A stretch of DNA of 64,000 nucleotides from a virus. The stretch covers positions 57,820-121,819 of IMG/VR virus record IMGVR_UViG_3300013109_000495. One strand, given 5' to 3'. Every line of letters starts with the position of its first letter. Position 1 is the first letter of the stretch. The position numbers and the translations under genes are program-made. The notes beneath the pieces are model-generated. The model was not told where the DNA came from, made no database searches, and was given only the letters and a program-made list of their open reading frames with translations. Shown piece after piece: positions 7,482 to 62,920 of the stretch.

Positions 7482-7487
7482 TTTTTG

Positions 7488-7495: not shown

Positions 7496-7511
7496 TTAGG
7501 AGATAAAAATT

Positions 7512-8138: not shown

Positions 8139-8164
8139 AATTTAACTTGCAATTATAATGAAAG

Positions 8165-8189: not shown

Positions 8190-8194
8190 ATGGC

Positions 8195-8202
8195 TATAAA
8201 TA
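8195..8202 (+). promoter_or_regulatory. Late promoter octamer
   Basis: TATAAATA, an exact consensus match immediately after the terminator, 7 bases before the ATG at 8210. It restarts transcription for the next tail gene. Confidence 0.7.
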
Positions 8203-8209
8203 CAAGGGT

Positions 8210-10409: not shown

Positions 10410-10414
10410 TCAAA

Positions 10415-10963: not shown

Positions 10964-10966
10964 ATA
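10959..10966 (+). promoter_or_regulatory. Late-type octamer
   Basis: ACTAAATA overlapping the gp16 stop, 8 bases before the ATG at 10975. No Shine-Dalgarno lies between. Confidence 0.4.
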
Positions 10967-10974
10967 GTACTAAT

Positions 10975-11574
10975 ATGAGCACGTTTACAAAATATCTAAC
11001 AGAATCAGTTAAGACCTATGAATATAAAATCAAAATAGCGGGTGATATTGAAAAAGGCTTCGCTAATCGTTTGGAAACTGCTTGTCAAAAATTTGAAATA
11101 CAAAAATTATCAGCAGGAAAGAAAACTCCAATACAATCGCTACCTTTAGACTTTCCAACAATAAAAAATGAATCTGTTACAATTTTCGATCTTCAAACTT
11201 CTTATCCAGTTGCAGTAAATGAATTAAGAGAATATATTGCTGATTATATGAGAATTTCTCCAGCTTGTGTAGTTGTAAGAAAACCAGGAGAACCATCAGA
11301 AGAATATCAAGAAACAATTGCAAATGCAACTAAATCAGAATACAAAAATAAACTTCATGACATAGAATATAAAGACGCACCTAAAGTAAATGCAGAAGAT
11401 TTTCATTCTACGAAAGCAAACATGAGTTTGTTAAAAGAATTATTAAAAGACAGAGATCTTAATAAGGAAGAAACTCCAAAAGAAAAAGAAAATATTACAA
11501 CTAAAGAAGACTCACCAGCAGATTCTCCATTTACAAAAACAACAAATCCACATCCGGATCCAAAGAGAAAATAA
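10975..11574 (+). CDS. Unknown late protein with capsid-targeting-like N-terminus
   Basis: A 199-residue protein. The first residues, MSTFTKYLTES, resemble the T4 capsid targeting sequence of internal head proteins (MKTYQEFIAE) and contain L-T-E, a fit to the gp21 protease cleavage rule (I/L-x-E). A folded middle (YEYKIKIAGDIEKGF, YMRISPACVVVRKPG) is followed by a disordered Lys/Glu/Pro tail. The setting is late and packaging-related. Packaging of the product inside the head is inference. Confidence 0.6.
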   Translation: MSTFTKYLTESVKTYEYKIKIAGDIEKGFANRLETACQKFEIQKLSAGKKTPIQSLPLDFPTIKNESVTIFDLQTSYPVAVNELREYIADYMRISPACVVVRKPGEPSEEYQETIANATKSEYKNKLHDIEYKDAPKVNAEDFHSTKANMSLLKELLKDRDLNKEETPKEKENITTKEDSPADSPFTKTTNPHPDPKRK

Positions 11575-11576
11575 TT

Positions 11577-11645
11577 ATGCCTTGTAATAATCCAAATTGT
11601 CAGTGTGAAAATTGTACTTGTGAAAATTGTACTTGCAGAGAATAA
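11577..11645 (+). CDS. 22-residue cysteine-rich microprotein
   Basis: An ATG-TAA frame encoding 22 residues with seven cysteines, at positions 3, 8, 10, 13, 15, 18 and 20, giving a CxCxxCxCxxCxC pattern with repeated ENCTC units. It starts 3 bases after one late gene and ends 4 bases before the next, so it is fully embedded in a late operon. The pattern suggests metal binding (metallothionein-like). No ribosome site stands out, so translation would be by coupling. Confidence 0.5.
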   Translation: MPCNNPNCQCENCTCENCTCRE

Positions 11646-11648
11646 ATT

Positions 11649-17112: not shown

Positions 17113-18633
17113 ATGAACTATCACGCAGTATTTGTTTTTAATCCATTTTCAAAAATTGATGCTATGCCCATGGCGCCTGCATTATTAAAAGCTATATGTG
17201 ATGCAAATGGCCTCAAAACTACAACATTAGATTACAATATAGAATTACAAATCGCATATTTTAATAAAAAAATTGCTGTTGATGTGGAACAATATCTAAT
17301 GCATTTTTCTAAAATGTCTATTGAAGCATATGACTGGTATCATCAATGGGTGGAAGAAAAAGCAAAAGAATTAATAAATTTAAATGCTAATTGGATAGGA
17401 TTTTCATTATTAAGTTATCAAAGTTTAACATTTACACACGATATTTGTTATTATATAAAAAAAAATAAACCCGAACAAAAAATTATACTTGGTGGACAAG
17501 GTATTAGTAAAGATGATAATACTAACGGTTCTTACAGAAATAATAAAAAAATGCCAGATGTACTACTAGAAACTGGACTATGTGATACTATTATAATAAA
17601 CGAAAGTGAAAGTTTGTTAATTGATATTCTACTTAATAATAAAAAAGGAAAATTTAATACTAAAGTACAATTAACAGCCGAAGACCTAAACCAATTACCT
17701 ACTCCATCATATATTGATTATAAATTAGATCTTTATAAAAACGCTTCAAATGATTTTCTCTCAGCTGAACAAAAATCAGTTTTGTATAAACAAGGTGTTG
17801 CGGCTACTATAACTGGTTCTAAAGGATGTGTGAGAAGATGTACATTTTGTGATGTATTTTCATTTGAACCGAAATTTGTTTTTAAAGACGGTAATAAAGT
17901 TGCTGAGGAAATGATTGAAATATATGAAAAACAAGGAATAACAAATTTTATGTTATCTGATTCATTAATAAACGGATCAATGAAAGCATTTAGACAAATG
18001 AATACAGCACTTGCAAAAAAACTACCACGAACAATAAGTTATTATGGTGAATATATAGCACGACCGGAAGGACAAACTACTAACGAGGATTATCATCTTA
18101 TGGCCGAAGCAGGTTGCAAACACGTTATTGTTGGTGTTGAATCTGGCAGTGAAGCTGTACGAAATCATATGAGGAAAAAATTTACAAACGATGATTTACA
18201 TTTAATGATTGAAAGTCTTTATAACGTTGGTATCACTCAAGAATGGAATATAATGACTGGCTATATTACTGAAACAAGAAAAGATTTTGAAGATACACTT
18301 GCGTTAGTAAAAAAATATAAAGATATTCCATTTCCAAAAATGATCGTTAATCCAGTTGGGGTATTACATTTATTACCAGGATCTCCATTATATGATACTC
18401 ATGCTAGACAACTAGAAATTACCTGGGAAGATATAAAACCCGGAGTAGGATTAATATATGATTATTGGTATAGTAAACAAAATCCAACTAACACGTTTGT
18501 TAATAGGATAACTTGGTGGACTGAATTAATCGAATATTGTCATGATCACGGATACATGACAGAATATAGATATAATACAAAGAAGGCAACTGCTAATCGA
18601 TTAATCCAGGCCTGGAACGAAAATAAAAAATAA
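17113..18633 (+). CDS. Cobalamin-binding-domain radical SAM enzyme
   Basis: A 506-residue protein of the B12-binding radical SAM class. The N-terminal half has the Rossmann pattern (WIGFSLLSYQSLTF, KIILGGQGIS); the radical SAM core has C239, C243 and C246 in GCVRRCTFCDV, then FMLSDSLINGS and VGVESGSEAVRNHMRKKF. The cobalamin domain shows no DxHxxG motif, so the lower His ligand seems absent. Members methylate or rearrange unactivated carbons; the substrate here is unknown. It has its own sigma70-like promoter, between the packaging genes and gp32. Confidence 0.8.
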   Translation: MNYHAVFVFNPFSKIDAMPMAPALLKAICDANGLKTTTLDYNIELQIAYFNKKIAVDVEQYLMHFSKMSIEAYDWYHQWVEEKAKELINLNANWIGFSLLSYQSLTFTHDICYYIKKNKPEQKIILGGQGISKDDNTNGSYRNNKKMPDVLLETGLCDTIIINESESLLIDILLNNKKGKFNTKVQLTAEDLNQLPTPSYIDYKLDLYKNASNDFLSAEQKSVLYKQGVAATITGSKGCVRRCTFCDVFSFEPKFVFKDGNKVAEEMIEIYEKQGITNFMLSDSLINGSMKAFRQMNTALAKKLPRTISYYGEYIARPEGQTTNEDYHLMAEAGCKHVIVGVESGSEAVRNHMRKKFTNDDLHLMIESLYNVGITQEWNIMTGYITETRKDFEDTLALVKKYKDIPFPKMIVNPVGVLHLLPGSPLYDTHARQLEITWEDIKPGVGLIYDYWYSKQNPTNTFVNRITWWTELIEYCHDHGYMTEYRYNTKKATANRLIQAWNENKK

Positions 18634-44950: not shown

Positions 44951-45892
44951 ATGATTAGTTGGCATATTGAACCTACTAGTAAATGCACGTTAGAATGTCC
45001 TTTGTGCGATCGTACTTGGTTTTATGAAACATTTAAAAAAAGATTAATACACGAAATAAATGTTGATAACCTTGTAAATTTTTTAGGACAAAATGCAGAC
45101 ATTTCATTTTGTGGAAATAATGGTGATCCAATTTATCATAACAAATTTATAGAATTATGTTCAAAATTAAAATCCAATAATTGTAAAATTTCAATTACAA
45201 CAAACGGTAGTTATAGAACAATCGATTGGTGGAAAAAACTTGCACAAATACTAAATGAAACCGATAAAATTACATTTAGTATAGACGGTTTAGAAGACAC
45301 AAATCATTTATATAGAAAGAATTCTGATTGGAAAATGCTAATGGATGCTGTTCTTATTATGGCCAATTCTAATACACCCATTGTTTGGAAATTTATAGTT
45401 TTTAAACATAATCAACATCAAATAGATGAGGCCAAACAAGCAAGTAAAGACCTTGGCTTTGTTGATTTTATGTTAGAATATAGTGATCGGTGGCTTGATC
45501 AAAAAGATTTAATGCCCGATAAAAAATACGTGAACCAACATCTTACACATCAAGAAAAAGTTTTATCAGATAGCAATTATACGTTTTCTATGCGACCTAA
45601 ATGTTTAAAAAATGATTTACCAAACAACCATTTATACATTGACGCTGAAGGTAATTTTTATCCTTGTTGTTGGTTTGGTACATATAGATATAAGTTTAAA
45701 AGTTTGTTCTCACCTAAAAACGGTGATTTTAACATAGCAAAATATTCTAGTGCAGACATTTTAAACAATGAGAAAATAAAAGATTTTTTTAATACAACAA
45801 AAGACTTTAACTCTGCTCACGAATGTTGTAAAATACAATGTGGAGGAAAATATTCGAAGAAGATTTGGGAATATGGAGTAAACAATGGCTGA
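44951..45892 (+). CDS. Radical SAM protein with C-terminal SPASM-like cysteines
   Basis: A 313-residue protein. C12, C16 and C19 form the radical SAM triad (CTLECPLCDRTW); TTNGSYRTIDWW and FSIDGLEDTNHLYRK are core strands; the C-terminal YIDAEGNFYPCCWF and HECCKIQCGGKY supply auxiliary cluster cysteines. This is the usual SPASM order (core first, auxiliary cluster last). It is coupled to the oxygenase-like gene and overlaps gp41 by 8 bases. Confidence 0.85.
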   Translation: MISWHIEPTSKCTLECPLCDRTWFYETFKKRLIHEINVDNLVNFLGQNADISFCGNNGDPIYHNKFIELCSKLKSNNCKISITTNGSYRTIDWWKKLAQILNETDKITFSIDGLEDTNHLYRKNSDWKMLMDAVLIMANSNTPIVWKFIVFKHNQHQIDEAKQASKDLGFVDFMLEYSDRWLDQKDLMPDKKYVNQHLTHQEKVLSDSNYTFSMRPKCLKNDLPNNHLYIDAEGNFYPCCWFGTYRYKFKSLFSPKNGDFNIAKYSSADILNNEKIKDFFNTTKDFNSAHECCKIQCGGKYSKKIWEYGVNNG

Positions 45893-47413: not shown

Positions 47414-48343
47414 ATGAAAAACATCAAATGGTTAATCGCACACCAACCGGAATATTTGTTTCTTAGAACTGCGAAAGCATTTGCAAAAATGCTTGAAAAG
47501 GTACTCCCAGAGTACAAAATAGAGATATTGACAACTGAGCAATATCTAAAACAATCTCCAGAATTCAAAAGAGAAGATATTGTGAATTTAGTTGAAAAAA
47601 ACGAAATCCAAATGTCTCAAACTGAAGTATGGGAATTAGAAAATCATACGTATGATAAAAACTTTTTAGTTTTTGATATGCCATGGTTATTCAAAGACCA
47701 CGGTCATGCTAGAAGAGTTTTAGAAGGACCAATTGGACAAGCAATCAACTCTAGACTTGTAAAACAAACAGGTGTTAGAGGATTAGCATACACATACTCA
47801 GGTGGTTACAGAACAGTTGGTATGGAAAACACACCAATTAAAAACTTATCTGATTTAGCAGATAAAACAATCAGAGTAAACGGAAACCCAATTACTCAAG
47901 AATTTTGGGCAAACTTTACAAATACTACGAGAGTTAAAACACCAAGACTAGGTGGAGAATTAAGTGATCTAGAACTTCCAAAAGGCGTTGACGGAAAAGA
48001 TACAACATATATTAGATTCCAAAATGCTAAAAGTTTCTTGAAGTCAGAACACTCTTTATTCTTAACAGACATTCTTATTAGTGATGCGTTCTTCCAAAGT
48101 TTATCTAAAGAAGAACAAGATATCTTTACTAACACTGCCTACAAAGCGGCAAGATTAGAAAGAAAATGGTCACAAGAAGATGCTGAACAGTTTGAAAAAA
48201 CTGCTAAAGAAAGAGGTTGTGAAATTGTTGAATTAAGCGAAGAAGATAAAACAACAATGAAACAAGAAGCCGAAGAAATTTATACTAAATGGGATAAGAA
48301 ATTTAGCCCAGGTCTTTTAGACGGTATAGCAAAATTACAGTAA
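47414..48343 (+). CDS. DctP-like TRAP transporter substrate-binding protein homologue without signal peptide
   Basis: A 309-residue protein with the DctP fold pattern: RTAKAFAKMLEKVLPEYKIE, FLVFDMPWLFKDHGHARRVL, GLAYTYSGGYRTVGMENTPI, LSDLADKTIRVNGNPITQEF, then LSKEEQDIFTNTAYKAARLE. Normal DctP proteins are exported by a signal peptide; this one begins directly at the mature-like sequence MKNIKWLIAHQPEY, so it should stay in the cytoplasm or enter the virion. A late-type octamer, a strong ribosome site and a dedicated terminator make it monocistronic and probably abundant. Confidence 0.75.
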   Translation: MKNIKWLIAHQPEYLFLRTAKAFAKMLEKVLPEYKIEILTTEQYLKQSPEFKREDIVNLVEKNEIQMSQTEVWELENHTYDKNFLVFDMPWLFKDHGHARRVLEGPIGQAINSRLVKQTGVRGLAYTYSGGYRTVGMENTPIKNLSDLADKTIRVNGNPITQEFWANFTNTTRVKTPRLGGELSDLELPKGVDGKDTTYIRFQNAKSFLKSEHSLFLTDILISDAFFQSLSKEEQDIFTNTAYKAARLERKWSQEDAEQFEKTAKERGCEIVELSEEDKTTMKQEAEEIYTKWDKKFSPGLLDGIAKLQ

Positions 48344-51679: not shown

Positions 51680-51852
51680 TAAGCAACTACACAACAAGCC
51701 TCGCCACGTATCTATATGAACGTATAGATGAACACCAAGCAAACCAGGAAGTAAGGCGTACACACCCAATGGCATGGCCAACAGGTTTGTACTTTACTAC
51801 GCAACACTTGGCAAAATGGATAGAGGAGCATGATAAATCAGAGACTATTTGA
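51676..51852 (+). CDS. 58-residue unknown protein
   Basis: An ATG that overlaps the DUF1289-type stop (ATGA) opens a 58-codon frame: MISNYTTSLATYLYERIDEH through HLAKWIEEHDKSETI. It overlaps the following radical SAM gene by 23 bases. Coupling on both sides supports it as a real gene. Confidence 0.6.
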   Translation: MISNYTTSLATYLYERIDEHQANQEVRRTHPMAWPTGLYFTTQHLAKWIEEHDKSETI

Positions 51853-52861
51853 TTGGTATAAAATAGATACTAACAAAAATTTACAAATTAAAAACATATG
51901 CCCTCGACCATATGATACTCTTCTTATAGATAAAAACGGATCTTGTTATGCTTGTGAGTGTACATCTTGGTTGCCACAAAGCATAGGAAACTTACAATTA
52001 AAATCATTAAACGAAATAATTAATTCCAAAACACACAAACACTTACAAGAGTCTGTTGCAGACGGAACTTATCGTTATTGTAATGAGCATCAATGCTCTT
52101 ATATGAAGTCTGGTGCTGTATTGCATGGCCAGCCGGAACGCATACAGCATTTAAGACTTGCTATAGATGATAGTTGTAATTTAAGATGTCCTAGCTGTCG
52201 TAAAGGTTTAATATTTCATAAAGAAGGTTCAGCATATACATTAGGAATTAAACTTGCAGACAAAATAAACGATTGGTTATACAATTATAAACATCCAATC
52301 CAAGTCCACATAGGATCAGATGGCGATCCTTTTGCTTCACACGTATATAGACACTTCATGGAACAAACTCCAGAGCGAGATAATATAAAGTATTCCATAT
52401 TAACTAATGGACTTATGTTTAAAGAGTTTCATACTAAAGTACCTTACGTTATTAACAATTTACAAGAACTAGGTGTTAGCATAGACGGTGCAAGTAAAGA
52501 AACATATGAAAAATTAAGACTAGGCGGCAATTGGAATAAAATTAATGAAAACCTAGACTGCATATCTGAATTAAAAGAGAAACACAATTTTAGATTTACA
52601 TTATACTTTGTTGTACAAAAAAACAACTATCACGAAATGGAAGATATTACACTGCTAGGTAAAAAATATAATGCTGATAGGGTTTGGTTGAGTCGAATAC
52701 AAGACTGGAATACATTTGAAAATTTTGAAGAACATAACATATTCAACACTGCACATCCATTAAATTCTGAATATCTAAAACAACTAAACAAGTTAGAAGA
52801 ATTTTCTAAAACTTCAAACGGTGATATTTTAGAAGAAGCAACCTTAAGACAACTTCATTAA
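51830..52861 (+). CDS. Radical SAM protein with N-terminal auxiliary-cluster module
   Basis: A 343-residue protein. The N-terminal half has SPASM/twitch-like cysteines (C24, C39, C42, C44, C84, C89; LLIDKNGSCYACECTSW) before the radical SAM triad C116, C120 and C123 (SCNLRCPSCRKG). Core strands are VHIGSDGDPFASH, YSILTNGLMF and LGVSIDGASKETYEKLR. The auxiliary module precedes the core, the reverse of common SPASM proteins. It overlaps a small gene upstream and converges with an oxygenase-like gene downstream. Confidence 0.8.
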   Translation: MINQRLFDWYKIDTNKNLQIKNICPRPYDTLLIDKNGSCYACECTSWLPQSIGNLQLKSLNEIINSKTHKHLQESVADGTYRYCNEHQCSYMKSGAVLHGQPERIQHLRLAIDDSCNLRCPSCRKGLIFHKEGSAYTLGIKLADKINDWLYNYKHPIQVHIGSDGDPFASHVYRHFMEQTPERDNIKYSILTNGLMFKEFHTKVPYVINNLQELGVSIDGASKETYEKLRLGGNWNKINENLDCISELKEKHNFRFTLYFVVQKNNYHEMEDITLLGKKYNADRVWLSRIQDWNTFENFEEHNIFNTAHPLNSEYLKQLNKLEEFSKTSNGDILEEATLRQLH

Positions 52862-53467
52862 ATTAAACGGGTCTTTTAATGGCATAGTAGCCAACATAAT
52901 TCTTGGATACTTTGCTTGTGGACCTGGCATCACGCGATGTGGTAGATAACTGTTAAACACTATAGGACACGTATGCATATGATAACGTTCACGCAACGGA
53001 TATAAATTAGCTACGGTATTATGTATTGCATCGAGATTATAACAATACTCTCCGTCGGTAAATTCATTTAAAATTTCAGGAAACTCACGCAACTTCTCAT
53101 CAGGTATATCATACCATTCAGTATATACATCCTCAGTATTGTATATAGGAAAATTTATTTTAAAGTTTCTGTCGGGTGCTCCATGATGCAAAACAAATCC
53201 TTGTGTCATTGCTTCTGTAAGAACTCCTACTGTGATTTCTTGAATTGGTATTTTTACGTATTGAAAATATTCAATTAAAGCTGGAGCACTGCGAGCCAAG
53301 TCTTTGTAATCAATTTTCATCCAGAACCCTTTTGACGTGCGGTCTTCGAGAAAGCCAGTATTAGTGCGTATCCATTGCATTACTTGTTGTTTTATATCTT
53401 CGAGATTGTATACAGGTAACTCATGAACTGCTTTGTATTGTGTTTGATTTCCAAGGTAATCTATCAT
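52844..53467 (-). CDS. 2OG-Fe(II) oxygenase-like protein
   Basis: About 207 residues from MIDYLGNQTQYKAVHELPVY. FVLHHGAPDRNFKINFPIYN, DVYTEWYD and NSYLPHRVMPGP followed by R-I-M-L resemble phage 2OG oxygenases in which an Asn-rich strand and a distal H-R-V...R form the site; the first iron His is uncertain. The start at 53467 is chosen because AATAAATA ends 8 bases upstream; the longer frame (to 53551) crosses the divergent gene. Confidence 0.55.
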   Translation of the reverse strand: MIDYLGNQTQYKAVHELPVYNLEDIKQQVMQWIRTNTGFLEDRTSKGFWMKIDYKDLARSAPALIEYFQYVKIPIQEITVGVLTEAMTQGFVLHHGAPDRNFKINFPIYNTEDVYTEWYDIPDEKLREFPEILNEFTDGEYCYNLDAIHNTVANLYPLRERYHMHTCPIVFNSYLPHRVMPGPQAKYPRIMLATMPLKDPFNLMKLS

Positions 53468-53475
53468 AAAAAAAA

Positions 53476-53483
53476 TATTTATT
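53476..53483 (-). promoter_or_regulatory. Late-type octamer, minus strand
   Basis: AATAAATA (minus), 8 bases before the start of the oxygenase-like gene, and divergent with the octamer at 53499. Confidence 0.4.
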
Positions 53484-53498
53484 GCACTACATTTGACA

Positions 53499-53506
53499 AT
53501 TAAATA
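53499..53506 (+). promoter_or_regulatory. Late-type octamer, plus strand
   Basis: ATTAAATA, 10 bases before the ATG of the dehydrogenase-like gene. Confidence 0.35.
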
Positions 53507-53516
53507 TTCAGCAATC

Positions 53517-54029
53517 ATGAAAATAGCAATAACAGGACATAAACGCGGCATTGGTAAAGCATTTGCGGAACAATTATCTACCCGTGGACACGAAATAATT
53601 GGTATATCGCGAAGTGATGGAGAGAATATACGTAGAACAATTCACACAGCATCTATAATAGAACCTTGCGATTTTTTTATTAACAATGCAATAAGTTTTT
53701 ATGCTCAGACTGAATTGTTATTTGAAGTTTGGCACCGGTGGCAACCTTACAAAGATGTTCATTATATCTGGAATATATCAACAAAAATATGTGCTGAGTC
53801 ACGTGATTTTGAAATAAACGGACTAACCATGAGAGAGTCAATGCAATATCGCAATCAAAAAATGAGCTTGGAACTTGCTCATGAACAATTAAATGCACAG
53901 GCCAGCAATATAAAGATGTCTTTGATCCGTCCTGGCAGTGTCAACACACAAAAGTTTAGTCCTTCTGACAGTATTTCGGCTGAGGCATACGTCAAGCAAG
54001 TGTTAGAAAACCAAGGAATATTATTATAA
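53517..54029 (+). CDS. Short-chain dehydrogenase/reductase-like protein
   Basis: A 170-residue compact SDR. MKIAITGHKRGIGKAFAEQL is the TGxxxGxG cofactor loop, FINNAISFY the NNA motif, YIWNIST the catalytic Ser, and YRNQK the YxxxK pair; IRPGSVNT follows. It would oxidise or reduce a sugar or other small alcohol with NAD(P). It is shorter than typical SDRs (about 250 aa). It abuts the sulfotransferase-like gene. Confidence 0.8.
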   Translation: MKIAITGHKRGIGKAFAEQLSTRGHEIIGISRSDGENIRRTIHTASIIEPCDFFINNAISFYAQTELLFEVWHRWQPYKDVHYIWNISTKICAESRDFEINGLTMRESMQYRNQKMSLELAHEQLNAQASNIKMSLIRPGSVNTQKFSPSDSISAEAYVKQVLENQGILL

Positions 54030-54572
54030 ATGTTGTCTAGTTGGGGCAATTTATTAAACACGGATTGTCATGTTATAAAAATTAAAGGCTTATACGTTTA
54101 TCCAATATTTAAAAATGGATCAACGCAACTACTTGCACAAAAAGATAAACTAATTGTTAATAGTAATATTAAAAAATTAAAAAATATTGTTGTTATTTTA
54201 AGAGATCCTACAGAAAGATTTATAGCCGGAGTCAACAAAGTAGCTTTTGTTAAAAAAACAACAGTTACTAAAACAATGACAAAAATAAAAAACAACAAAC
54301 TAATTGATAGACATTTTATTCCACAATTTATTTGGTTGTTACATTTAAAAAAATATTTTGATGGTGATGTAGAATTAACACCAATGTATACATTAGACAG
54401 ATTATTAACAAACAAAACTAGAGACGAAAGCTGGCCGAAAAATAAAATTACTGTTAATCCTATAAAAAAATTTATCAACATCGACGAAAAAATGATACAA
54501 AAATATATGCATAAGAATATAAAACTAAAAACTATTATAAAGGATTTAATAAATGTTTTGCCCAAGAATTAA
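54030..54572 (+). CDS. Sulfotransferase-like protein
   Basis: A 180-residue protein. LYVYPIFKNGSTQLLAQK fits the PAPS 5'-loop (P-K/x-x-G-S/T-T) and IVVILRDPTERFIAGVN the 3'-phosphate motif (R-x-P-x-x-R). It is more divergent than the sulfotransferase at 24218. Its ATG directly follows the SDR stop, and it overlaps the radical SAM gene by 20 bases, so these three form one unit. Confidence 0.65.
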   Translation: MLSSWGNLLNTDCHVIKIKGLYVYPIFKNGSTQLLAQKDKLIVNSNIKKLKNIVVILRDPTERFIAGVNKVAFVKKTTVTKTMTKIKNNKLIDRHFIPQFIWLLHLKKYFDGDVELTPMYTLDRLLTNKTRDESWPKNKITVNPIKKFINIDEKMIQKYMHKNIKLKTIIKDLINVLPKN

Positions 54573-55632
54573 TCATTTTGTTAGATTAAATGACAATGGC
54601 ACAATTGGTAAATGTGGGCATATGACAAATGCAAAGGGATTTAAAACTTTTAAAGACTTACATAAAAGCCAATGGCTTAAAAAAATTGAACTTGATATGA
54701 CGTTAGATGCTTGGCCAGAAGAATGTATAAGATGTAAACAAACCGAAGAAGTAACTGGAGAAAGTATTAGAACTAAAAGTATCGAACGACATAAAATATT
54801 ACATCCACTTAAAGAAGATTATCTAGTTGTTGGTGGAGTATTAGATAACGTATGCAATAGTGCTTGTCAAACTTGTAATGCAAATCTTTCAACTAAAATA
54901 GGAAGTTTAGAAAAAAATTATATAAAAACAAACAATCTTCAAACGTTTTTTGGGTTACCACAACACAGAATTTTAGAAGTAGATGTTAATGGCGGAGAAC
55001 CTACTGCTAGTAAAAATTATAAAATTTTATTAAAAAACTTACCATCTAATACAAAAATAGTAAGAATGAATACTAACGGTTCAAGAATGATTAATGAATT
55101 AATTGATTTATTAGAAAATAAAATTATGGTTATTGTTACAATAAGTTTTGATGGTACTGAAAACGTGCATGATTACGTACGGTGGCCAATTAAATGGGAA
55201 AAATTTATAAAAACAGTTGCAAAATATAAAAAACTACAAAAACAATACAAACTACTTAAATTAGATTTCTGGACTACTGTAAGTTGTTTAAATGTTGGAG
55301 ACTTTCCAAATATTATAAAATATGCATCAGATAATAATATTAATCATGCATGGGCATTTTTAAACACGCCCGACGTATTAAATGTAAAATATAAAAATCC
55401 ATTTACTGTTGATGCAAAAATAGATTTTTTATCAAGCAACAATAAAATGTTACACGAAATGGCTACACATATAGCAATCGAATCCGATAATACAAATGGT
55501 GGTGTAATTGATGAACAACCTAACTTAGAACTGTTTATTAAAAAACAAGACTATCTTAGAAAAATTAATATTAATGATTATTTTAATTTTGATGAGAATC
55601 TATTCAATAGCAATTCAGCAAACCCTTTATGA
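54553..55632 (+). CDS. Radical SAM protein with N-terminal twitch-like module
   Basis: A 359-residue protein. N-terminal cysteines C3, C21, C58 and C61 (RINHFVRLNDNGTIGKC, then ECIRCKQTEE) precede the radical SAM triad C101, C105 and C108 (VCNSACQTCNANL). VDVNGGEPTASK and TISFDGTENVHDYVRWP are core strands. It has the same architecture as the genes at 60442 and 61676. Its end overlaps the convergent SGNH gene by 55 bases. Confidence 0.8.
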   Translation: MFCPRINHFVRLNDNGTIGKCGHMTNAKGFKTFKDLHKSQWLKKIELDMTLDAWPEECIRCKQTEEVTGESIRTKSIERHKILHPLKEDYLVVGGVLDNVCNSACQTCNANLSTKIGSLEKNYIKTNNLQTFFGLPQHRILEVDVNGGEPTASKNYKILLKNLPSNTKIVRMNTNGSRMINELIDLLENKIMVIVTISFDGTENVHDYVRWPIKWEKFIKTVAKYKKLQKQYKLLKLDFWTTVSCLNVGDFPNIIKYASDNNINHAWAFLNTPDVLNVKYKNPFTVDAKIDFLSSNNKMLHEMATHIAIESDNTNGGVIDEQPNLELFIKKQDYLRKININDYFNFDENLFNSNSANPL

Positions 55633-56291
55633 TGTTTTTCTCCATAATGTATACCATCTTGTGCTATATTTGGATCAGTAATTCTTTCTCTGCGTGATCC
55701 TTTTCCAAAATATTGATCCCATGGTGGCCAGCAACTCCTAAGCGTAGCATAATCCATTACATTTAAATTAGCTGGAAGAATAGGTATCTCTTCTGCAAAA
55801 CAGTGAAATACTTTTGCATGATTATGGTCAGCAAATTTTTGTACAAAAAAAAGATTTTTTAAAAAATTTTGATGATCTGTAATATCTGTTTCGTATCTTA
55901 ATTGTTTGTCTCGACCAAATAAATGGATTGGAATTTTATCTAAATGTTCTCTTCTACTAACACTTGGCCAACAACAAATAATAATTTTAGGAAATAAAAC
56001 TTTTTCTGTTCCATATAAAATACGAACCATTTTATCTGCCGAACACCCTGGTACCGCTAGATTCCAGTACCTTAATAATTTTGTATTATGTTTTGATAAG
56101 TGGGATACCCAATATGTTTCTTCTGCATGACCAACTCCAAAGGTATGTGAACATCCTAATATAACTACATTCTTTTTCCCTGCGGGTAAAGGAGCAAATT
56201 CTGGACAACGATAGCCAAACGAATTTACTTTCATTCCTTCAGCATTATTGTTTACAGGAATTTCTTTATCTGAAAAATGCCCAATATTCAT
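55578..56291 (-). CDS. SGNH-hydrolase-like protein
   Basis: A 237-residue protein. NVVILGCSHTFGVGHAEETY gives the nucleophile block (Ser in GCSH), LAVPGCSADKM the Gly block and DGIHYGEKHHKGFAELLL the D-x-x-H block. It is a possible glycan O-acyl esterase or transferase. It is TAATG-coupled to the small gene at 56291 and overlaps the radical SAM gene by 55 bases. Confidence 0.75.
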   Translation of the reverse strand: MNIGHFSDKEIPVNNNAEGMKVNSFGYRCPEFAPLPAGKKNVVILGCSHTFGVGHAEETYWVSHLSKHNTKLLRYWNLAVPGCSADKMVRILYGTEKVLFPKIIICCWPSVSRREHLDKIPIHLFGRDKQLRYETDITDHQNFLKNLFFVQKFADHNHAKVFHCFAEEIPILPANLNVMDYATLRSCWPPWDQYFGKGSRRERITDPNIAQDGIHYGEKHHKGFAELLLNRFSSKLK

Positions 56292-56587
56292 TACGTACTT
56301 CCTCGTGACAATTCCATTTTACGTTTTAATTGATGTTGTATGAATACTTCAATAAAGCTCATTTTACCGGGCAATACCTTACCATATTTTATTCTTGCTA
56401 TGGTAAGATGTTTTGCTTTAGCATAACATTCCATAAGTGCTCTTGTTTTGATATAACGTATTTTTAAAGCATTGTTGTCATGCAAATATTTTACAAATGG
56501 GGATTCATCTATTATAAGATTCTTTGCTAATTCTATTGGACAATGTTCGTTGTAACCTTTTAACTCCATTGTAAAGAACCATTTCAT
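56291..56587 (-). CDS. Small basic protein, unknown
   Basis: A 98-residue protein with MELKGYNEHCPIELAKNLII and YIKTRALMECYAKAKHLTIA. A second Met (56569) could be the start. It is TAATG-coupled to the SGNH gene and lies just downstream of tRNA-Asp on the same strand. No family recognised. Confidence 0.55.
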   Translation of the reverse strand: MKWFFTMELKGYNEHCPIELAKNLIIDESPFVKYLHDNNALKIRYIKTRALMECYAKAKHLTIARIKYGKVLPGKMSFIEVFIQHQLKRKMELSRGST

Positions 56588-56609
56588 ATACGTAATTATA
56601 AAGAGATCA

Positions 56610-56685
56610 TGGCGGTCTGTACGGGAATCGAACCCGTGATCTTCTCCGTGACAGGGAGACGTGTTAACCGCTACACTAACAGACC
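56610..56685 (-). tRNA. tRNA-Asp (GTC)
   Basis: 76 bases including an encoded CCA. Acceptor arms GGTCTGT / ACAGACC, T-arm GGGTTCGATTCCC, anticodon stem TCTCC / GGAGA with loop CTGTCAC, giving anticodon GTC. Confidence 0.95.
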
Positions 56686-56693
56686 GTTATGGT

Positions 56694-57092
56694 CTATTCA
56701 GTTACCACTGGACAGTTTGGATTTGCAATTGCATCTTCCAAAGCTGAAGCACTAGCATTCAGTTGTGATTCTAAATTAGCAACTGTACTTTCTAATTCTC
56801 CTCTTAGAGCATCAGAGTCGTTCAGTCTAGCATTAACCGCCACTGAATCGGCTTCCAAACCTGCAATTACAGATTCTAATCCTGCTATTGCGTCATTGCG
56901 AACTGCTATTTCGTCTGACAATGATTCAGTTAGAGTTGCTGACGCCGAAATTTCATCGTTAGCATTAGACAAGTCTGCTTCTAAATCTTTAACTGTTCCT
57001 GCTTGATTTGTTACAATAATCAACAAAACAACAACGAGGATAAAATAAAGCCACGGTGCCGGTTTTGCAATTAATTTTTTGATTGTTTCCAT
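56694..57092 (-). CDS. Membrane-anchored coiled-coil protein (spanin-like candidate)
   Basis: A 132-residue protein. METIKKLIAKPAPW is followed by one transmembrane helix (YFILVVVLLIIVTNQAG), then a long Ala/Ser/Glu/Leu heptad-rich coiled coil (LEADLSNANDEISASATLTE onward) and a Cys near the C-terminus. An N-in anchor with a periplasmic coiled coil matches inner-membrane spanins. I chose the Met at 57092 because the longer frame runs into tRNA-Ala. The gene sits between tRNA-Asp and tRNA-Ala. Confidence 0.6.
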   Translation of the reverse strand: METIKKLIAKPAPWLYFILVVVLLIIVTNQAGTVKDLEADLSNANDEISASATLTESLSDEIAVRNDAIAGLESVIAGLEADSVAVNARLNDSDALRGELESTVANLESQLNASASALEDAIANPNCPVVTE

Positions 57093-57141
57093 AATAATAT
57101 TATTATATAGTACTATTATATAACAATACAAGAATAATCTT

Positions 57142-57217
57142 TGGTGGACCGAATGGGATTCGAACCCACGACCCCCTGAATGCAAATCAGGTGCTCTCCC
57201 AACTGAGCTATCGGCCC
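57142..57217 (-). tRNA. tRNA-Ala (TGC)
   Basis: 76 bases with encoded CCA. Acceptor arms GGGCCGA / TCGGTCC, D-arm region GCTCAGTTGGGAGAGC, anticodon stem CCTGA / TCAGG with loop TTTGCAT. Confidence 0.95.
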
Positions 57218-57242
57218 GTAGTATGTATCCAAATCGTATATT

Positions 57243-57278
57243 ACCAAAATCACCAAAATCACCAAACGTACCAAACAG
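57243..57278 (+). repeat. Four 9-base tandem units between two tRNAs
   Basis: ACCAAAATC, ACCAAAATC, ACCAAACGT and ACCAAACAG in direct succession in the tRNA-Ala/tRNA-Thr spacer. No coding function is seen. Confidence 0.6.
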
Positions 57279-57313
57279 CTACCATGCCTGGACATGGTAC
57301 AAATCTGCGTGTG

Positions 57314-57389
57314 TGGTGCCGACACAGGGACTCGAACCCCGAACCTACTGATTACAAATCAGTTGCTCTACCAATTGAGCTATGTCGGC
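57314..57389 (-). tRNA. tRNA-Thr (TGT)
   Basis: 76 bases with encoded CCA. Acceptor arms GCCGACA / TGTCGGC, anticodon stem ACTGA / TCAGT with loop TTTGTAA, giving anticodon TGT. Confidence 0.95.
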
Positions 57390-57398
57390 TATCTATAT

Positions 57399-57426
57399 AT
57401 TATACTATAACTCCTAGAAAAATCAA
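57399..57426 (-). promoter_or_regulatory. Sigma70-type promoter for the tRNA cluster
   Basis: On the minus strand: -35 TTGATT (57421-57426), 16-base spacer, perfect -10 TATAAT (57399-57404), 9 bases before the first base of tRNA-Thr. Confidence 0.7.
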
Positions 57427-57486
57427 CCGTTTAAAGCGTTATAGAGCGGCGTACACGCATGGTAAAGGCTTATCAAGTGTCTTTAT

Positions 57487-57556
57487 ACATAAGCAATATT
57501 ACCATGCAATCCTTACATATCTGAGTTGTAAAAAACACATAAGTAATACTACCATG
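57487..57556 (+). repeat. Duplicated start-region repeat
   Basis: ACATAAGCAATATTACCATG (57487-57506) and ACATAAGTAATACTACCATG (57537-57556), 18 of 20 bases identical, spaced by exactly 50 bases. Each ends in ATG. The first ATG opens only a six-codon frame; the second starts the gene at 57554. Confidence 0.7.
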
Positions 57557-57739
57557 AGAGATAAAATACATTTAATTAAACATTCAGAACAACTTGCTGA
57601 AACTAAAAAAGAAAAAATACTATTCAGAACTCAACGTCAACCCGTTGAAGCAGGTGCTCATGGTACTTTAGATTACACAATTAAAAAAGGTGTAAACAAA
57701 AATAAAATCGCAGACGACAGAATCATTAAAAGCAAATAA
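57554..57739 (+). CDS. Small basic protein, unknown
   Basis: A 61-residue protein MRDKIHLIKHSEQLAETKKE onward, rich in Lys/Arg, ending DDRIIKSK. A longer upstream frame would cross tRNA genes on the opposite strand, so the ATG at 57554 is preferred. No recognised motif. Confidence 0.55.
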   Translation: MRDKIHLIKHSEQLAETKKEKILFRTQRQPVEAGAHGTLDYTIKKGVNKNKIADDRIIKSK

Positions 57740-57770
57740 AAGTCTTAAACTATTAGTTGTAAATAATAGC

Positions 57771-57929
57771 ATGAAACAGATGTTAAAGAAATTTTGGAAT
57801 TGGAAAATAAAACTAATTCGTGACTACCCAGTGTGGTGTGCATATGCGGCCTGGCTGGAAGGAATTATAATCGGAATATTAATCTATCATTTTTGGATGA
57901 TGGATGTATTAAGTTGTTGCAATGGATAA
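57771..57929 (+). CDS. 52-residue single-pass membrane protein
   Basis: MKQMLKKFWNWKIKLIRDYP is a basic N-terminus, followed by a hydrophobic helix (GIIIGILIYHFW) and a C-C-rich end. It overlaps the lipoprotein gene by 8 bases. It may be a membrane partner of the lipoprotein or a lysis accessory; the function is unknown. Confidence 0.6.
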   Translation: MKQMLKKFWNWKIKLIRDYPVWCAYAAWLEGIIIGILIYHFWMMDVLSCCNG

Positions 57930-58149
57930 AAAAATAGAACGAAATATAATATGGACTCTCGCCGTAATATTAATTTTAGTTGGCGTACTTGGTTGCGTTT
58001 CTATTCCAACAACTAATTTAAATCCTAAAAAAACTACTCCACTTGATACTATAATAATAATGAAAGATCTTGGTACTGCACTTGGTTGTGCGTTTGTTCC
58101 AAATGATCCTGCTTGTCAAAGAGAACCACTCGAATTACATACAAGGTAA
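57922..58149 (+). CDS. Small lipoprotein (outer-spanin-like candidate)
   Basis: A 75-residue protein with a charged N-terminus (MDKKIERNI), a hydrophobic helix (WTLAVILILVGVLGC) ending in a lipobox-type V-L-G-C, then a Pro/Thr-rich mature part with further Cys. The size and lipobox match outer-membrane spanin subunits, and a candidate inner spanin lies at 56694. It overlaps the membrane protein gene upstream. Confidence 0.55.
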   Translation: MDKKIERNIIWTLAVILILVGVLGCVSIPTTNLNPKKTTPLDTIIIMKDLGTALGCAFVPNDPACQREPLELHTR

Positions 58150-58150
58150 T

Positions 58151-58465
58151 TTAAATTGCTAATCGATTTTCTGTAAAATCTAAACCTTCTAACTCTTTAG
58201 GTTTACCCAATGGATACGATGGCTCTAGTCTGAACTCTTCGCCTGTATCGTCGTTCTTGCAACCAGCAACTAGCCAATCCCATTTAAACTGACCGTCTAC
58301 AACAAATTCCCACATAACATCATAGGTTCCGTTATTCCTTGTCTGTAAAGTAAGTTCTGTTTTACAGGCTTCCATTGTATCATATGTTTGTTGCATTTGA
58401 AACGTTTGTTGTGTTGCTATTGGATCTTGTGTTATAAGATAAGCAAGAATTAAAATTTTATACAT
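58151..58465 (-). CDS. Secreted small protein, unknown
   Basis: A 104-residue protein with an N-terminal signal-peptide-like stretch (MYKILILAYLITQDPIA), then two cysteines (EACKTEL, VAGCKND) that could pair in the periplasm. It is convergent with the lipoprotein gene and lies 4 bases after the stop of the lipoprotein gene upstream of it on the minus strand. Confidence 0.55.
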   Translation of the reverse strand: MYKILILAYLITQDPIATQQTFQMQQTYDTMEACKTELTLQTRNNGTYDVMWEFVVDGQFKWDWLVAGCKNDDTGEEFRLEPSYPLGKPKELEGLDFTENRLAI

Positions 58466-58469
58466 ATAA

Positions 58470-59093
58470 TTAAAAAACTATATCTTTACCTTCTGACTTA
58501 TTACAATATTGCATATTCAAAACGAAATTTAACCCTGACGATTTAAAACAATGTGAATATGATTTTTGTTTTATTTTATGTTTAAAATTTGGTGCGAATT
58601 TGTCTAATGTTGTGTAATTTGTTAATTTTACATAATGTACCGGTGACTCATTAATATGCGTTGCTATGCTTGGTTCATTTTTGTGAATTGGTGTATAAGG
58701 TCTAATTGATTCTTTTTCAACATGAATTTTCTTTTTACCTAGGAACCAGTTTCCTTTATCTTTTGGTAGGAACCCTCCAAAATCATTTAAAGATTTATTT
58801 GCAATTTCGAAACTAGTAATCGATAATTCTTTATTTTTAAAGTGTTTTTTAAGACGTTTTTCTGTATATTTGTTTTCAACAGCCGCGTACATATGTTGAC
58901 TTATTGTTTTACCAGTTGATTTATGTGATGCTAAATTAACAAGAGCACTTGCCGCCTGATGCTCATATTTTCCAGTAGCTGTTGCTATTGCACCATTAAT
59001 TGAAAGACTACCTTCAAGGGTAGATACCAGTGGAAGACCCGAACATCCATTTAAAAACGTTACTAATAGTATTGCGCCTAATAACCGTTTCAT
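58470..59093 (-). CDS. Lipoprotein, unknown
   Basis: A 207-residue protein with a lipoprotein signal, MKRLLGAILLVTFLNGC (lipobox F-L-N-G-C), then GAIATATGKYEHQAASALVN, and a basic helical stretch near YTEKRLKKHFKNK. It would be anchored to a membrane in the periplasm. The ATG at 59093 is preferred to the TTG at 59099. The function is not recognisable. Confidence 0.6.
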   Translation of the reverse strand: MKRLLGAILLVTFLNGCSGLPLVSTLEGSLSINGAIATATGKYEHQAASALVNLASHKSTGKTISQHMYAAVENKYTEKRLKKHFKNKELSITSFEIANKSLNDFGGFLPKDKGNWFLGKKKIHVEKESIRPYTPIHKNEPSIATHINESPVHYVKLTNYTTLDKFAPNFKHKIKQKSYSHCFKSSGLNFVLNMQYCNKSEGKDIVF

Positions 59094-59136
59094 AGTCAAT
59101 TATTTAAACTCCTATTAAATTAGTTATAACTATATA

Positions 59137-59343
59137 TTACTCTGCAATTTGATTGCATTGTTCTTTTGTTGCCTTCAATCCATCTTCAGAATTAAATAAC
59201 CAAACATAAGAATAAACAACCTGATCCCCATCAATCACACACTTCTTACCATAAGAAAGTGTTGGATTTTTTACAGAACAAGCTGTTAGCAAAACAGTTG
59301 CAAATAATATAACAACTAATCTTTTTATAAATGTATTTATCAT
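59137..59343 (-). CDS. Small lipoprotein, unknown
   Basis: A 68-residue protein with the signal MINTFIKRLVVILFATVLLT followed by A-C (lipobox L-L-T-A-C), then two further Cys in KKCVIDGDQ and KEQCNQIAE. The Met at 59343 fits signal-peptide length better than the upstream start at 59364. It is the first gene of a minus-strand run of three exported proteins. Confidence 0.6.
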   Translation of the reverse strand: MINTFIKRLVVILFATVLLTACSVKNPTLSYGKKCVIDGDQVVYSYVWLFNSEDGLKATKEQCNQIAE

Positions 59344-59411
59344 AATATACACACATAATAACACATATCACGATACAGTCAACCACGAAAAATAGCAAAT
59401 AATTAACAATA

Positions 59412-60458
59412 ATGCAACCATTTGAACAATCTCCTTACTGGAAAACCTTACAACCTATCATTGAGAGTGGAGCAATTCGGGCCGCTATTGACGGCGTTTA
59501 CAAATATCCTTATAGAATAAATTTATATCCTGGCGCTAGTTGTATGTTCAAATGTTTATATTGTGGACGAAATTATGATGCTGTTATAAAGAAAAGTGAA
59601 AATGTATACAAACAAATTATAGAACAAGACGATGGTAAAGATAAGAATCGATTCGGTATTACCGGAGGATTAGAGCCTCTTACCAGTCCTTACATTAATG
59701 ATATATGTAAAGATTTAGTTGATAAAGGATATAAATCTAGAATGATTACTAATGGTTTTTTATTAAATGATAAAATACTATCAAAAAATCCTTACATAAA
59801 TTCCTTAGATCATTTAAGAATATCTTTATATGGATTAGATAACGAAGAATACGTAGCAACGACCAGACATAACAAAGGGTGGCAAATTGTAAAAGAAAAC
59901 TTAACCAAGTATAATAAACGAGATGACAAAACTAAATTATTTTTAAACTATGTTCTATTACCAAAACATTTTGAAAATTTACAAAGCATTATAAATTATA
60001 TACAAGATATAGGCGGTACAAATAATTTGTCGTTAAGAGAAGACTATACATTCCAATATGAAATAAATGAACGAAATAAAATCCAGGATACACTATTGAC
60101 ATTTGACGAACGTATTAAAAAAATGAACACAACTGTTGATTACGGCTACGCTCTTCAAGACGCTATGAATGGTAAAGACACGCATCTAATGAGAGTAACC
60201 TATAATGAATTGAGTCCAAAACAAGCTCCACAAATAAAAATCTGTGTAGTTCCTAATGGTAACATTTATTCATACATGGCGGCTGGATTTCCGGATAGGC
60301 CGGGAGCATTACGTCATGCATTAGGTAATGTTAATAATAGTTCTATTGAACAAGAATTGAAGAAGCAAGTTGAGGTTGCACCTAGAGAAGATGATATGCA
60401 ATACTTAGATGCATACAATCATTTAATTTTAAAATATATTCATGAGAAAAGTTCCTAA
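59412..60458 (+). CDS. Radical SAM protein
   Basis: A 348-residue protein. The triad is C44, C48 and C51 (GASCMFKCLYCGRN); GITGGLEPLTSPYI is the SAM-contact strand and RMITNGFLLND and LRISLYGLDNEEYVATTR are core strands; a later Cys is in IKICVVPNGNIY. The layout recalls DesII-like deaminating or sugar radical SAM enzymes, but the assignment is open. It overlaps the next radical SAM gene by 17 bases. Confidence 0.8.
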   Translation: MQPFEQSPYWKTLQPIIESGAIRAAIDGVYKYPYRINLYPGASCMFKCLYCGRNYDAVIKKSENVYKQIIEQDDGKDKNRFGITGGLEPLTSPYINDICKDLVDKGYKSRMITNGFLLNDKILSKNPYINSLDHLRISLYGLDNEEYVATTRHNKGWQIVKENLTKYNKRDDKTKLFLNYVLLPKHFENLQSIINYIQDIGGTNNLSLREDYTFQYEINERNKIQDTLLTFDERIKKMNTTVDYGYALQDAMNGKDTHLMRVTYNELSPKQAPQIKICVVPNGNIYSYMAAGFPDRPGALRHALGNVNNSSIEQELKKQVEVAPREDDMQYLDAYNHLILKYIHEKSS

Positions 60459-61674
60459 AACATATTGCCGAATGCCTTTTAAACAAGTTATTGTAGACAA
60501 ATCTGGCCTAATGAAATTTTGTTATTATAATTTTTTTCCATGGAGAACTAACGCAAAACACGACTATACTTTTCCTGACGATAAAAAACATATTAACGAT
60601 GTTGACGACATTAATGATTGGTTTCATGGTTCATATATGAACCAAGTGCGTAAATCAATGCTAGAAGGTAAACCTTTAAAAGAATGTATTGGTTGTTATC
60701 AATGTGAGGAACGCGGTGAACAATCAATTAGACAAGAAACTAATTACAAATATTTTGAAAAAAATAAAGATGAACCACTAGACAACGTCAAATTAGAAAC
60801 TTTAAACTTAAAATTTGGAAACAAATGTAACTTGAAATGTAAAATGTGTGACCCGTGGACTAGTAGTAAATTACAAACAGAGTGGGAAGAAATAGGTTGG
60901 GAATACAATGATCCAATTGTAAAAAGTTCAACTAAAGATAAAGTTGATTATAACTGGCCAACAAAAGAAAAAAATATTGAAAAATTAAAAGCCATGGCTA
61001 AACATTACAAACATATTCATTTCTCTGGTGGCGAACCACTATTACATAAAACGTTATTTGATTGGATGCAACATTGTATTGACAACAACTATGCAAAAAA
61101 TATTGATTTTGAGATTGTAACAAACGGAACAGTTATACCTCCTCAATTCATTACAATGGCTGAAAAGTTTAATTCTGTTGCAATAATTTTGGGTATAGAT
61201 GGTTTGGATAATACATTTAACTATATTAGATATCCCGGAAACTTTGATATTGTTGAACGGAACGCAAACTTTTATCATAACTGGTTAAGAAATAAACCTA
61301 ACTCTAGATTTACTATTAATTTTTGTTTACAAGTTTTTAATTTGCACCACCTTAGTAATTTTATAGAACGATATACTCCTCTTTGTATTAATTCTAAACC
61401 CGGAATAATTTACTTAGAAGATCCAGCTTATATGTCTTATAATCTATTAAATGCCAACGATATTAAACAACAAATAAAAAAATTATTAATATTAAAACAA
61501 TCATCTAACAACGAACCCATGAACGAAATTATACAAGAATGTTTAACTAAACTATCTACTACAAAACAAAACTGGGCCGGCTGGAAAGAATTAAAACAAT
61601 TTATTACAACGCAAGACAACCACAGGAGTATTAATATTGCAAATTATATTCCCGAACTAGCTCATTATTTTTAA
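60442..61674 (+). CDS. Radical SAM protein with N-terminal twitch-like module
   Basis: A 410-residue protein. The N-terminal YCRMPFKQVIVDKSG and FCYYNFFPW, with C9, C27, C82 and C85, form an auxiliary cluster-type module before the radical SAM triad C129, C133 and C136 (NKCNLKCKMCDPW). HFSGGEPLLHKTLF and ILGIDGLDNTFNYIRYP are core strands. It is paralogous over its whole length with the next gene (61676). These proteins lie within a three-gene radical SAM operon. Confidence 0.85.
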   Translation: MRKVPKTYCRMPFKQVIVDKSGLMKFCYYNFFPWRTNAKHDYTFPDDKKHINDVDDINDWFHGSYMNQVRKSMLEGKPLKECIGCYQCEERGEQSIRQETNYKYFEKNKDEPLDNVKLETLNLKFGNKCNLKCKMCDPWTSSKLQTEWEEIGWEYNDPIVKSSTKDKVDYNWPTKEKNIEKLKAMAKHYKHIHFSGGEPLLHKTLFDWMQHCIDNNYAKNIDFEIVTNGTVIPPQFITMAEKFNSVAIILGIDGLDNTFNYIRYPGNFDIVERNANFYHNWLRNKPNSRFTINFCLQVFNLHHLSNFIERYTPLCINSKPGIIYLEDPAYMSYNLLNANDIKQQIKKLLILKQSSNNEPMNEIIQECLTKLSTTKQNWAGWKELKQFITTQDNHRSINIANYIPELAHYF

Positions 61675-61675
61675 T

Positions 61676-62920
61676 ATGAAGGAAGTTTCTAAATCTTATT
61701 GTAGAGTACCATTTGATAGTATTACTGTTACGCCAACAGGACGTATGCAAATGTGTTGTGAGGCACAATGGACTGCTTTACTTTCAACAGAGAAAACTTC
61801 AATTAAAGATTTAGATAGTATTGACAAATGGTTTAACAGTGATTATCTTAACAACGTAAGAAAATCTATGTTAAAAGGTAAGCTATTACCTGAATGTGTA
61901 ACCTGTTATAAAAATGAAAAGCTATATGGTAGTTCTATTCGAACTGCTATTAATAAAGAATATTTTGCTAAAAATAATAATACAACAGAATACAGCATTA
62001 AAAAAGTAGATTTTAAACTCGGAAACAAATGTAATTTAAAATGTAAAATGTGTTTTCCTTATGCATCTAGTGAGCTTTGGAAAGAATGGAAAGCACTTGG
62101 ATGGAACAGTAAAGAAAAAGATCCAAACAAAGATACATCATGGAAATATTATGATGGATATTTTAAAGAAGACTATGCATGGCCAAAGAATAAAACCAAC
62201 ATGGACAAAATAAAAAAGGTAGCGGTAAAGAGTAAACTTATTCACGTTACTGGAGGTGAGCCAACATTAAATCCAGAGTTCTTTGATTTATTACGACATT
62301 GTATTGATACTGGCGTTGCAAAAAATATTATGCTCGACATTACTACCAATGCAACAAAAATTCATCCAAAATTTTTTGACATGGTACGACAATTCAAAAA
62401 ACTTGATCTTATTATTAGTATGGATGGTATTGATAAAACGTATGAGTATGTAAGATATCCAGCAGTATATAATACTGTCTACAAAAATATTTTAAAATAC
62501 AATGCGTTTGTAAAAACATTAAACAAAGATTCAACATTAAGATTTAATTTTGTATTACAAATGTGGAACATACACTCAACTCTAGATGTTATAAAAACAC
62601 TTACTCCTTTAGCTGTGAACGAAACACAAGTACCTGTAATGATTGAAGTTCTAAACGATCCACGTTTTATGCATTGGGATATTCTTCCAGAATGGTATAT
62701 TAAAAAAATTGTAGCAAATATTCACAAAGAGAAACAAGCAAACCACCCAGAATTAATTAGATATGGAATATTTGCTTTTGCTGAAAAACTTACAGCATAC
62801 AAAGAAAGAGACGTAACAGAACTTAAAAAACAGCTATTAGAGTTCACTACTATACAAGATAAACACAGAAGAATCAATTTAAAGGATTATATACCAAATT
62901 TGGAGTATTTTTTCCGATAA
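61676..62920 (+). CDS. Radical SAM protein with N-terminal twitch-like module, paralogue
   Basis: A 414-residue protein with the same layout as the preceding gene: C9, C27, C28, C74 and C77 (YCRVPFDSITVTPTGRMQMC, ECVTCYKNE), then C119, C123 and C126 (NKCNLKCKMCFPY), HVTGGEPTLNPEFF and ISMDGIDKTYEYVRYP, and a matching C-terminus (KHRRINLKDYIPNLEYFF against NHRSINIANYIPELAHYF). It probably acts on the same or a related substrate. It starts 1 base after the previous stop. Confidence 0.85.
   Translation: MKEVSKSYCRVPFDSITVTPTGRMQMCCEAQWTALLSTEKTSIKDLDSIDKWFNSDYLNNVRKSMLKGKLLPECVTCYKNEKLYGSSIRTAINKEYFAKNNNTTEYSIKKVDFKLGNKCNLKCKMCFPYASSELWKEWKALGWNSKEKDPNKDTSWKYYDGYFKEDYAWPKNKTNMDKIKKVAVKSKLIHVTGGEPTLNPEFFDLLRHCIDTGVAKNIMLDITTNATKIHPKFFDMVRQFKKLDLIISMDGIDKTYEYVRYPAVYNTVYKNILKYNAFVKTLNKDSTLRFNFVLQMWNIHSTLDVIKTLTPLAVNETQVPVMIEVLNDPRFMHWDILPEWYIKKIVANIHKEKQANHPELIRYGIFAFAEKLTAYKERDVTELKKQLLEFTTIQDKHRRINLKDYIPNLEYFFR

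Follow-up and report, generated by a model that had tools for sequence, protein, structure and literature searches.

Radical-SAM proteins with an auxiliary-cluster domain ahead of the core in a marine phage, and their relatives in phages and Bdellovibrionota

Background

SPASM/twitch enzymes share the cysteine signature C-x(9-15)-G-x4-C, and those that have been characterised are mostly peptide maturases. In the BtrN-type sugar dehydrogenases, anSME and SkfB, the auxiliary-cluster domain comes after the radical-SAM core. The opposite order, twitch cysteines first and core second, is that of the NCBIfam model NF033640 (N_Twi_rSAM), which bears the title 'twitch domain-containing radical SAM protein' and whose description names neither a reaction nor a substrate. 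N_Twi_rSAM is a large family for which, to our knowledge, no reaction is known. Many radical-SAM genes can be found together in a single phage: in 2017, 12 of them were reported in the T4-like marine viral genome TARA_ERS488813_N000010 (PMC5332604).

Results

Radical-SAM genes of the window

The window analysed here is a stretch of 64,000 nucleotides corresponding to bases 57,820-121,819 of a 121,819-base viral contig (IMGVR_UViG_3300013109_000495). Its terminase is up to 54% identical to those of large myophages, and the host of these genes is a marine phage. Seven radical-SAM genes, named below by their first base, are found in the window (Table 1), as a sequence-only reading of the same DNA had counted. 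Six Pfam radical-SAM matches exceed their cut-off in the whole contig, every one of them inside the window; with 29.3, 51830 stays just under the cut-off of 29.5. That reading had called this density high for a virus. It is high when compared with phages in general but not unique, since viral loci with up to nine members of radical-SAM families per about 17 kb were recovered in our study, and density as such is not new because the 12-gene genome had already been published (PMC5332604).

Table 1. Radical-SAM genes of the window and one neighbouring gene, with the cysteines of the four proteins carrying an N-terminal motif
Feature	Position	Strand	Evidence	Cysteines
N-terminal-twitch radical-SAM enzyme (N_Twi_rSAM)	61676..62920	+	NF033640 278.7 bits; AlphaFold mean pLDDT 92.1, pTM 0.92	twitch C9, C27/C28, C74, C77; core C119/C123/C126
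N-terminal-twitch radical-SAM enzyme (N_Twi_rSAM)	60442..61674	+	NF033640 267.7 bits; core-tree sister of 61676	twitch C9, C27, C82, C85; core C129/C133/C136
Diverged N-terminal-twitch radical-SAM protein	54553..55632	+	NF033640 130.5 bits, below cut-off; in N_Twi clade	twitch C3, C21, C58, C61; core C101/C105/C108
SPASM/twitch-first radical-SAM protein, separate family	51830..52861	+	PF13186 at residues 24-89	N-terminal C24, C42, C84, C89; core C116/C120/C123
Ordinary-order radical SAM-SPASM/twitch protein	44951..45892	+	PF04055 then PF13186	
DesII-like radical-SAM protein, directly upstream of 60442	59412..60458	+	TIGR04426	
B12-binding radical-SAM protein	17113..18633	+	PF04055; PF02310 under its cut-off	
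Short SDR/epimerase-like protein, upstream of 54553 by two genes	53493..54029	+	weak PF01370/PF00106 matches	

The protein encoded by 59412 was matched to TIGR04426 (rSAM_desII) with an E-value of 2.3e-66 and 224.5 bits, against a cut-off of 450. The 17113 protein is closest to the PhpK (P-methyltransferase) subfamily (E 3e-31). Relatives of it are present in some of the bacterial loci that contain N_Twi genes; with the proteins of two such Bdellovibrionota loci, L114 and L136, it shares 32% identity (about 239 bits). Just ahead of the radical-SAM region there is a gene for a solute-binding protein of the DctP type (47414-48343; PF03480, E 2.5e-30), and 3 tRNA genes (Asp, Ala and Thr; 56610-57389, minus strand) are located between radical-SAM genes. 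No A-type iron-sulfur carrier (PF01521) was found when searched for in the contig.

Cysteine motifs and domain order

In 51830, 54553, 60442 and 61676, a C-x12-G-x4-C motif is followed by a second pair, Cx2C in the last three and Cx4C in 51830, all of these cysteines being located ahead of the CxxxCxxC core. The reversed order proposed for these four genes by the sequence-only reading is thus borne out, their open reading frames being present where it had placed them. When the N-terminus of each of the four genes was shuffled 20,000 times, the motif reappeared in 0 to 18 shuffles. The canonical SPASM/twitch order, with the auxiliary domain C-terminal to the core, is observed in 44951 (Radical_SAM at residues 6-153, SPASM at 223-297) and in none of the four genes; both orders consequently coexist in one phage, as had also been proposed. 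The four genes are, on strong grounds, proteins in which a twitch-type/SPASM-like domain has been permuted to the front of the radical-SAM core.

Family membership and origin of the reversed order

The reversed order already bears a name, NF033640 covering three of the four genes. Its cut-off of 170 bits is passed by 60442 and 61676, whereas 54553 matches over its full length (E 8e-38) with a score below the cut-off, and 51830 reaches only 44.1 bits in a match led by the core. As judged from these profile scores, 60442 and 61676 firmly belong to the N_Twi_rSAM family and 54553 loosely so. The four genes, listed together earlier, are better described as three plus one, because 51830 matches NF033640 in the core alone and has a SPASM-first family of its own. 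The PF13186 match to 51830 is above its cut-off (E 6.6e-6), and the same model matches 61676 weakly. The alignment of the 51830 family comprises 7 sequences, in which the four N-terminal cysteines are invariant; a search of reference phages with the 51830 protein returned no match. From its sequence, 51830 is assigned to a separate SPASM-first (Cx4C) family devoid of a named model.

In a tree of the core domains, N_Twi proteins form one group (97/98) within which 60442 and 61676 are sisters (98/92) and 54553 occupies a long branch. The 51830 family falls outside this group; it is placed next to the 44951 family, though weakly (80/66). An AU test did not reject the topology uniting N_Twi with 51830 (p 0.396), and the data are therefore compatible with a reversed order that arose once or twice.

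Conservation, domain homology and fold

Conservation of the N-terminal cysteines in homologues had been set beforehand as a test of the sequence-only reading, which withstood it. Among 188 non-redundant viral homologues (less than 80% identity, including a few members of the 51830 family), the four N-terminal cysteines are conserved at 98, 97, 100 and 97% and the core cysteines at 100%, a CC doublet being frequent at the second N-terminal position. The N-terminal twitch cysteines are also invariant or nearly so in alignment A2, and NF033640 is matched by all 80 of the 80 aligned viral homologues.

The C-terminal domain of the 44951 family exhibits the layout C ... CC ... CxxxC found at the N-terminus of N_Twi proteins, with cysteines conserved at 91-100% over 64 rows. 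Using hhalign, the N_Twi N-terminus was aligned with this C-terminal twitch domain at 94.8% (E 4.9e-8) and with the N-terminus of 51830 at 97.3%. As controls, 20 other families were compared: 19 gave values of at most 2.3%, and the twentieth, at 94.7%, was the 51830 family itself. According to these profile alignments, the N-terminal domain of N_Twi and the twitch domain at the C-terminus of 44951-family proteins are homologous.

For 61676, AlphaFold gave a model of high confidence over the whole chain (Table 1). The 51830 model is less reliable (mean pLDDT 78.8), and confidence is low near its second cysteine pair (84-96). Neither model found a whole-chain structural match among solved structures; the matches listed had query-normalised TM-scores of at most 0.40 for 61676 and 0.50 for 51830. 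The best solved fold matches were SkfB, the sactipeptide maturase 5why/5wgg and SuiB, all peptide maturases. No solved structure with the same reversed domain order was found. Searching solved structures with single sequences gave no significant match, and searching with a profile gave matches to the core only.

Distribution in viruses and bacteria

At least 571 relatives were detected in viral contigs by an alignment-based scan. Some of the viral proteins consist of two N_Twi units in tandem; in locus L067, for instance, one such tandem protein, 1412 residues long (5094-9329), is accompanied by an 820-residue N_Twi protein whose C-terminus is weakly similar to aminotransferases (9319-11778; PF00155, E 0.011). 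Within annotated phages (50,697 records), a match to 61676 was obtained for only 41, and all but one of these are Vibrio phages. A first genome scan with 61676 recovered no relative. The majority of the 77 cellular loci analysed belong to Bdellovibrionota. With a threshold of E 1e-40, N_Twi proteins were detected in 30 out of 114 genomes in the phylum of a genome whose record is titled Bdellovibrionia (G001), versus 3 out of 200 in the phylum of a Poseidonocella genome (G002), a contrast with p 3e-12 once the centre genomes are excluded. None of the 14 control genomes passed the cut-off. Some of the cellular loci outside Bdellovibrionota may be phage contigs in metagenome bins. N_Twi_rSAM is present in many marine phages and in the predator-rich phylum Bdellovibrionota, usually in the company of other radical-SAM genes.

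Three N_Twi subtypes, recognised by the motifs AKW...SCHHP, APWTHTYxSPQxERRxCCASRE and LPWIHL, co-recur in a Bacteriovoracaceae bacterium and in a phage (L160 2821-14817 and L043 1216-8799), as if they were steps of one pathway.

Gene neighbourhood

In the cellular loci, counting those of a same genome separately, a relative of 44951 was at most three genes away from N_Twi in 19 cases and far from it in none (p 7e-6), and a third radical-SAM type was found near N_Twi 16 times and far from it 0 times (p 5e-5). The 44951 type is present in 27 viral loci and the third type in 15.

Other families were also encountered, some of them with a possible link to sugars. A carbamoyltransferase, confirmed with Pfam, is present in 35 viral loci; SGNH-like proteins occur in 34, and two glycosyltransferase-like families in 38 and 32, the SGNH-like and glycosyltransferase-like types being named by eye from sequence. 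In viral locus L043 a DesII-like gene adjoins a DegT aminotransferase, and in bacterial loci N_Twi is found alongside NDP-hexose 2,3-dehydratase and FdtA. The DesII-like 59412 and the glycosyltransferase-annotated gene beside the Vibrio phage KVP40 relative are further hints of this kind. The window itself contains a Glyco_transf_61 gene and, at 31614-33338, an asparagine-synthase-like amidotransferase gene (PF00733, PF13537) amid glycosyltransferase-like genes. In cellular loci, neither carbamoyltransferases (p 0.30) nor glycosyltransferase-like genes (p 0.14) were significantly closer to N_Twi. Pfam tallies of the nearest neighbours comprised few sugar families (GT2, 3 out of 109) and mostly unannotated proteins, a weak functional signal. 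Glycan-gene islands are frequent in marine phages, and proximity alone is for that reason weak evidence for a role in sugar chemistry.

What looks new in this organisation is the arrays themselves, which comprise up to nine genes in 17 kb and, in Bdellovibrionota as well as in phages, recur together with the 44951 type and the third radical-SAM type, in some cases accompanied by deoxysugar, carbamoyl- or glycosyltransferase genes. A literature search retrieved no description of this combination recurring in phages and Bdellovibrionota, and nothing on an N-terminal twitch or on the N_Twi family name.

Discussion

Proposed function and alternatives

We favour, with about even weight for and against, an interpretation in which these proteins are radical-SAM enzymes that carry a permuted auxiliary-cluster domain and modify glycans or small molecules. 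A single-cluster twitch-type domain would have been placed ahead of the SAM-cleaving core by permutation of the usual order. Judging from the cysteine pattern and profile homology, the N-terminal domain probably binds a single auxiliary [4Fe-4S] cluster, while the SAM-cleaving cluster would be bound by CxxxCxxC in the core. If twitch/SPASM enzymes are a guide, the auxiliary cluster might take an electron from the substrate, or anchor it, after hydrogen abstraction, and the chemistry is presumably oxidative or epimerising. The phage would most likely use these enzymes with the 44951-type, DesII-like and B12 radical-SAM enzymes to build or edit a sugar-containing molecule, for example a surface glycan; a sugar or glycan is the favoured, putative substrate. 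More tentatively, and with the balance against it, phages and Bdellovibrionota may share a cassette encoding a multi-enzyme radical-SAM pathway (several N-terminal-twitch enzymes, a 44951-type and the third type) that makes a new glycan or small molecule, the permuted order having arisen at least twice, in N_Twi and in the 51830 family.

The main rival to a sugar is a peptide, because the characterised twitch/SPASM enzymes are mostly peptide maturases. The proteins would then cross-link or epimerise residues of a small peptide (RiPP) encoded by the phage or its host, which we regard as rather unlikely. The cores show weak matches to named SPASM/twitch families, the majority of which mature peptides, and the best fold matches point the same way, but the core matches are no more than any radical-SAM domain would give. 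Short conserved proteins do lie nearby in places: one family of 101 residues is found in 13 viral loci, and KVP40.0273 neighbours the relative in Vibrio phage KVP40. The latter, however, is acidic, 89 residues long and without obvious core repeats, and no precursor-like peptide was recognised, ORFs of at least 90 residues being those covered systematically. Moreover, up to nine divergent enzymes per array would require many peptides.

It is improbable that the enzymes, instead of acting on a surface molecule, serve phage DNA or translation in the manner of QueE, MoaA or viperin, by modifying nucleotides, tRNA or a cofactor. The cores distantly match the QueE-like PHROG 2076, MoaA and viperin models, and some annotators call the KVP40-type relatives QueE, but these matches are restricted to the shared core and far under the curated cut-offs, and no other nucleotide-modification genes recur in the cassettes. 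Finally, since a four-cysteine pattern by itself does not separate zinc from iron-sulfur, the N-terminal cysteines could be imagined as zinc-binding or structural, with no auxiliary cluster. The C-x12-G-x4-C signature makes this highly improbable, together with the homology to SPASM/twitch domains that PF13186 (for 51830) and hhalign bring out.

The abundance of N_Twi_rSAM in marine phages and its common occurrence in Bdellovibrionota matter for a family with no reaction known to us, and its conserved gene company yields testable guesses at the substrate. A permuted auxiliary domain would mean that the cluster can reach the active site from the N-terminal as well as from the C-terminal side of the core.

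Comparison with known systems

The four phage proteins share the cysteine signature, an auxiliary-cluster domain and the radical-SAM core with BtrN-type sugar dehydrogenases, anSME and SkfB, but carry the auxiliary domain ahead of the core; among the matches listed, the query-normalised TM-score of 61676 to solved structures was 0.40 at most. The order of 60442, 61676 and 54553 is that of NF033640, of which 51830 is not a member. The 59412 protein matches DesII (dTDP-4-amino-4,6-dideoxy-D-glucose ammonia-lyase) over most of its length, but is shorter and scores half the curated cut-off; a DesII-type substrate is only putative. The genome TARA_ERS488813_N000010 resembles ours in carrying many radical-SAM genes in one T4-like phage, domain order not being described in the available text of that report (PMC5332604); a point of difference is that our contig shows no A-type iron-sulfur carrier.

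A relative in a cultivated phage, and a possible model for N_Twi-type enzymes, is KVP40.0272 (PHROG 14086) of Vibrio phage KVP40, which likewise exhibits N-terminal cysteines (C14, C31/C32, C68 and C71) before the core and, like 54553, scores under the N_Twi_rSAM cut-off (134.6 bits). Together with KVP40.0273 and a gene whose annotation is PF00534 (glycosyl transferase, group 1), it makes up a three-gene unit (L176 4713-7035). The N_Twi-like gene is thus present as a single copy in a small unit, in contrast to the arrays of the other loci.
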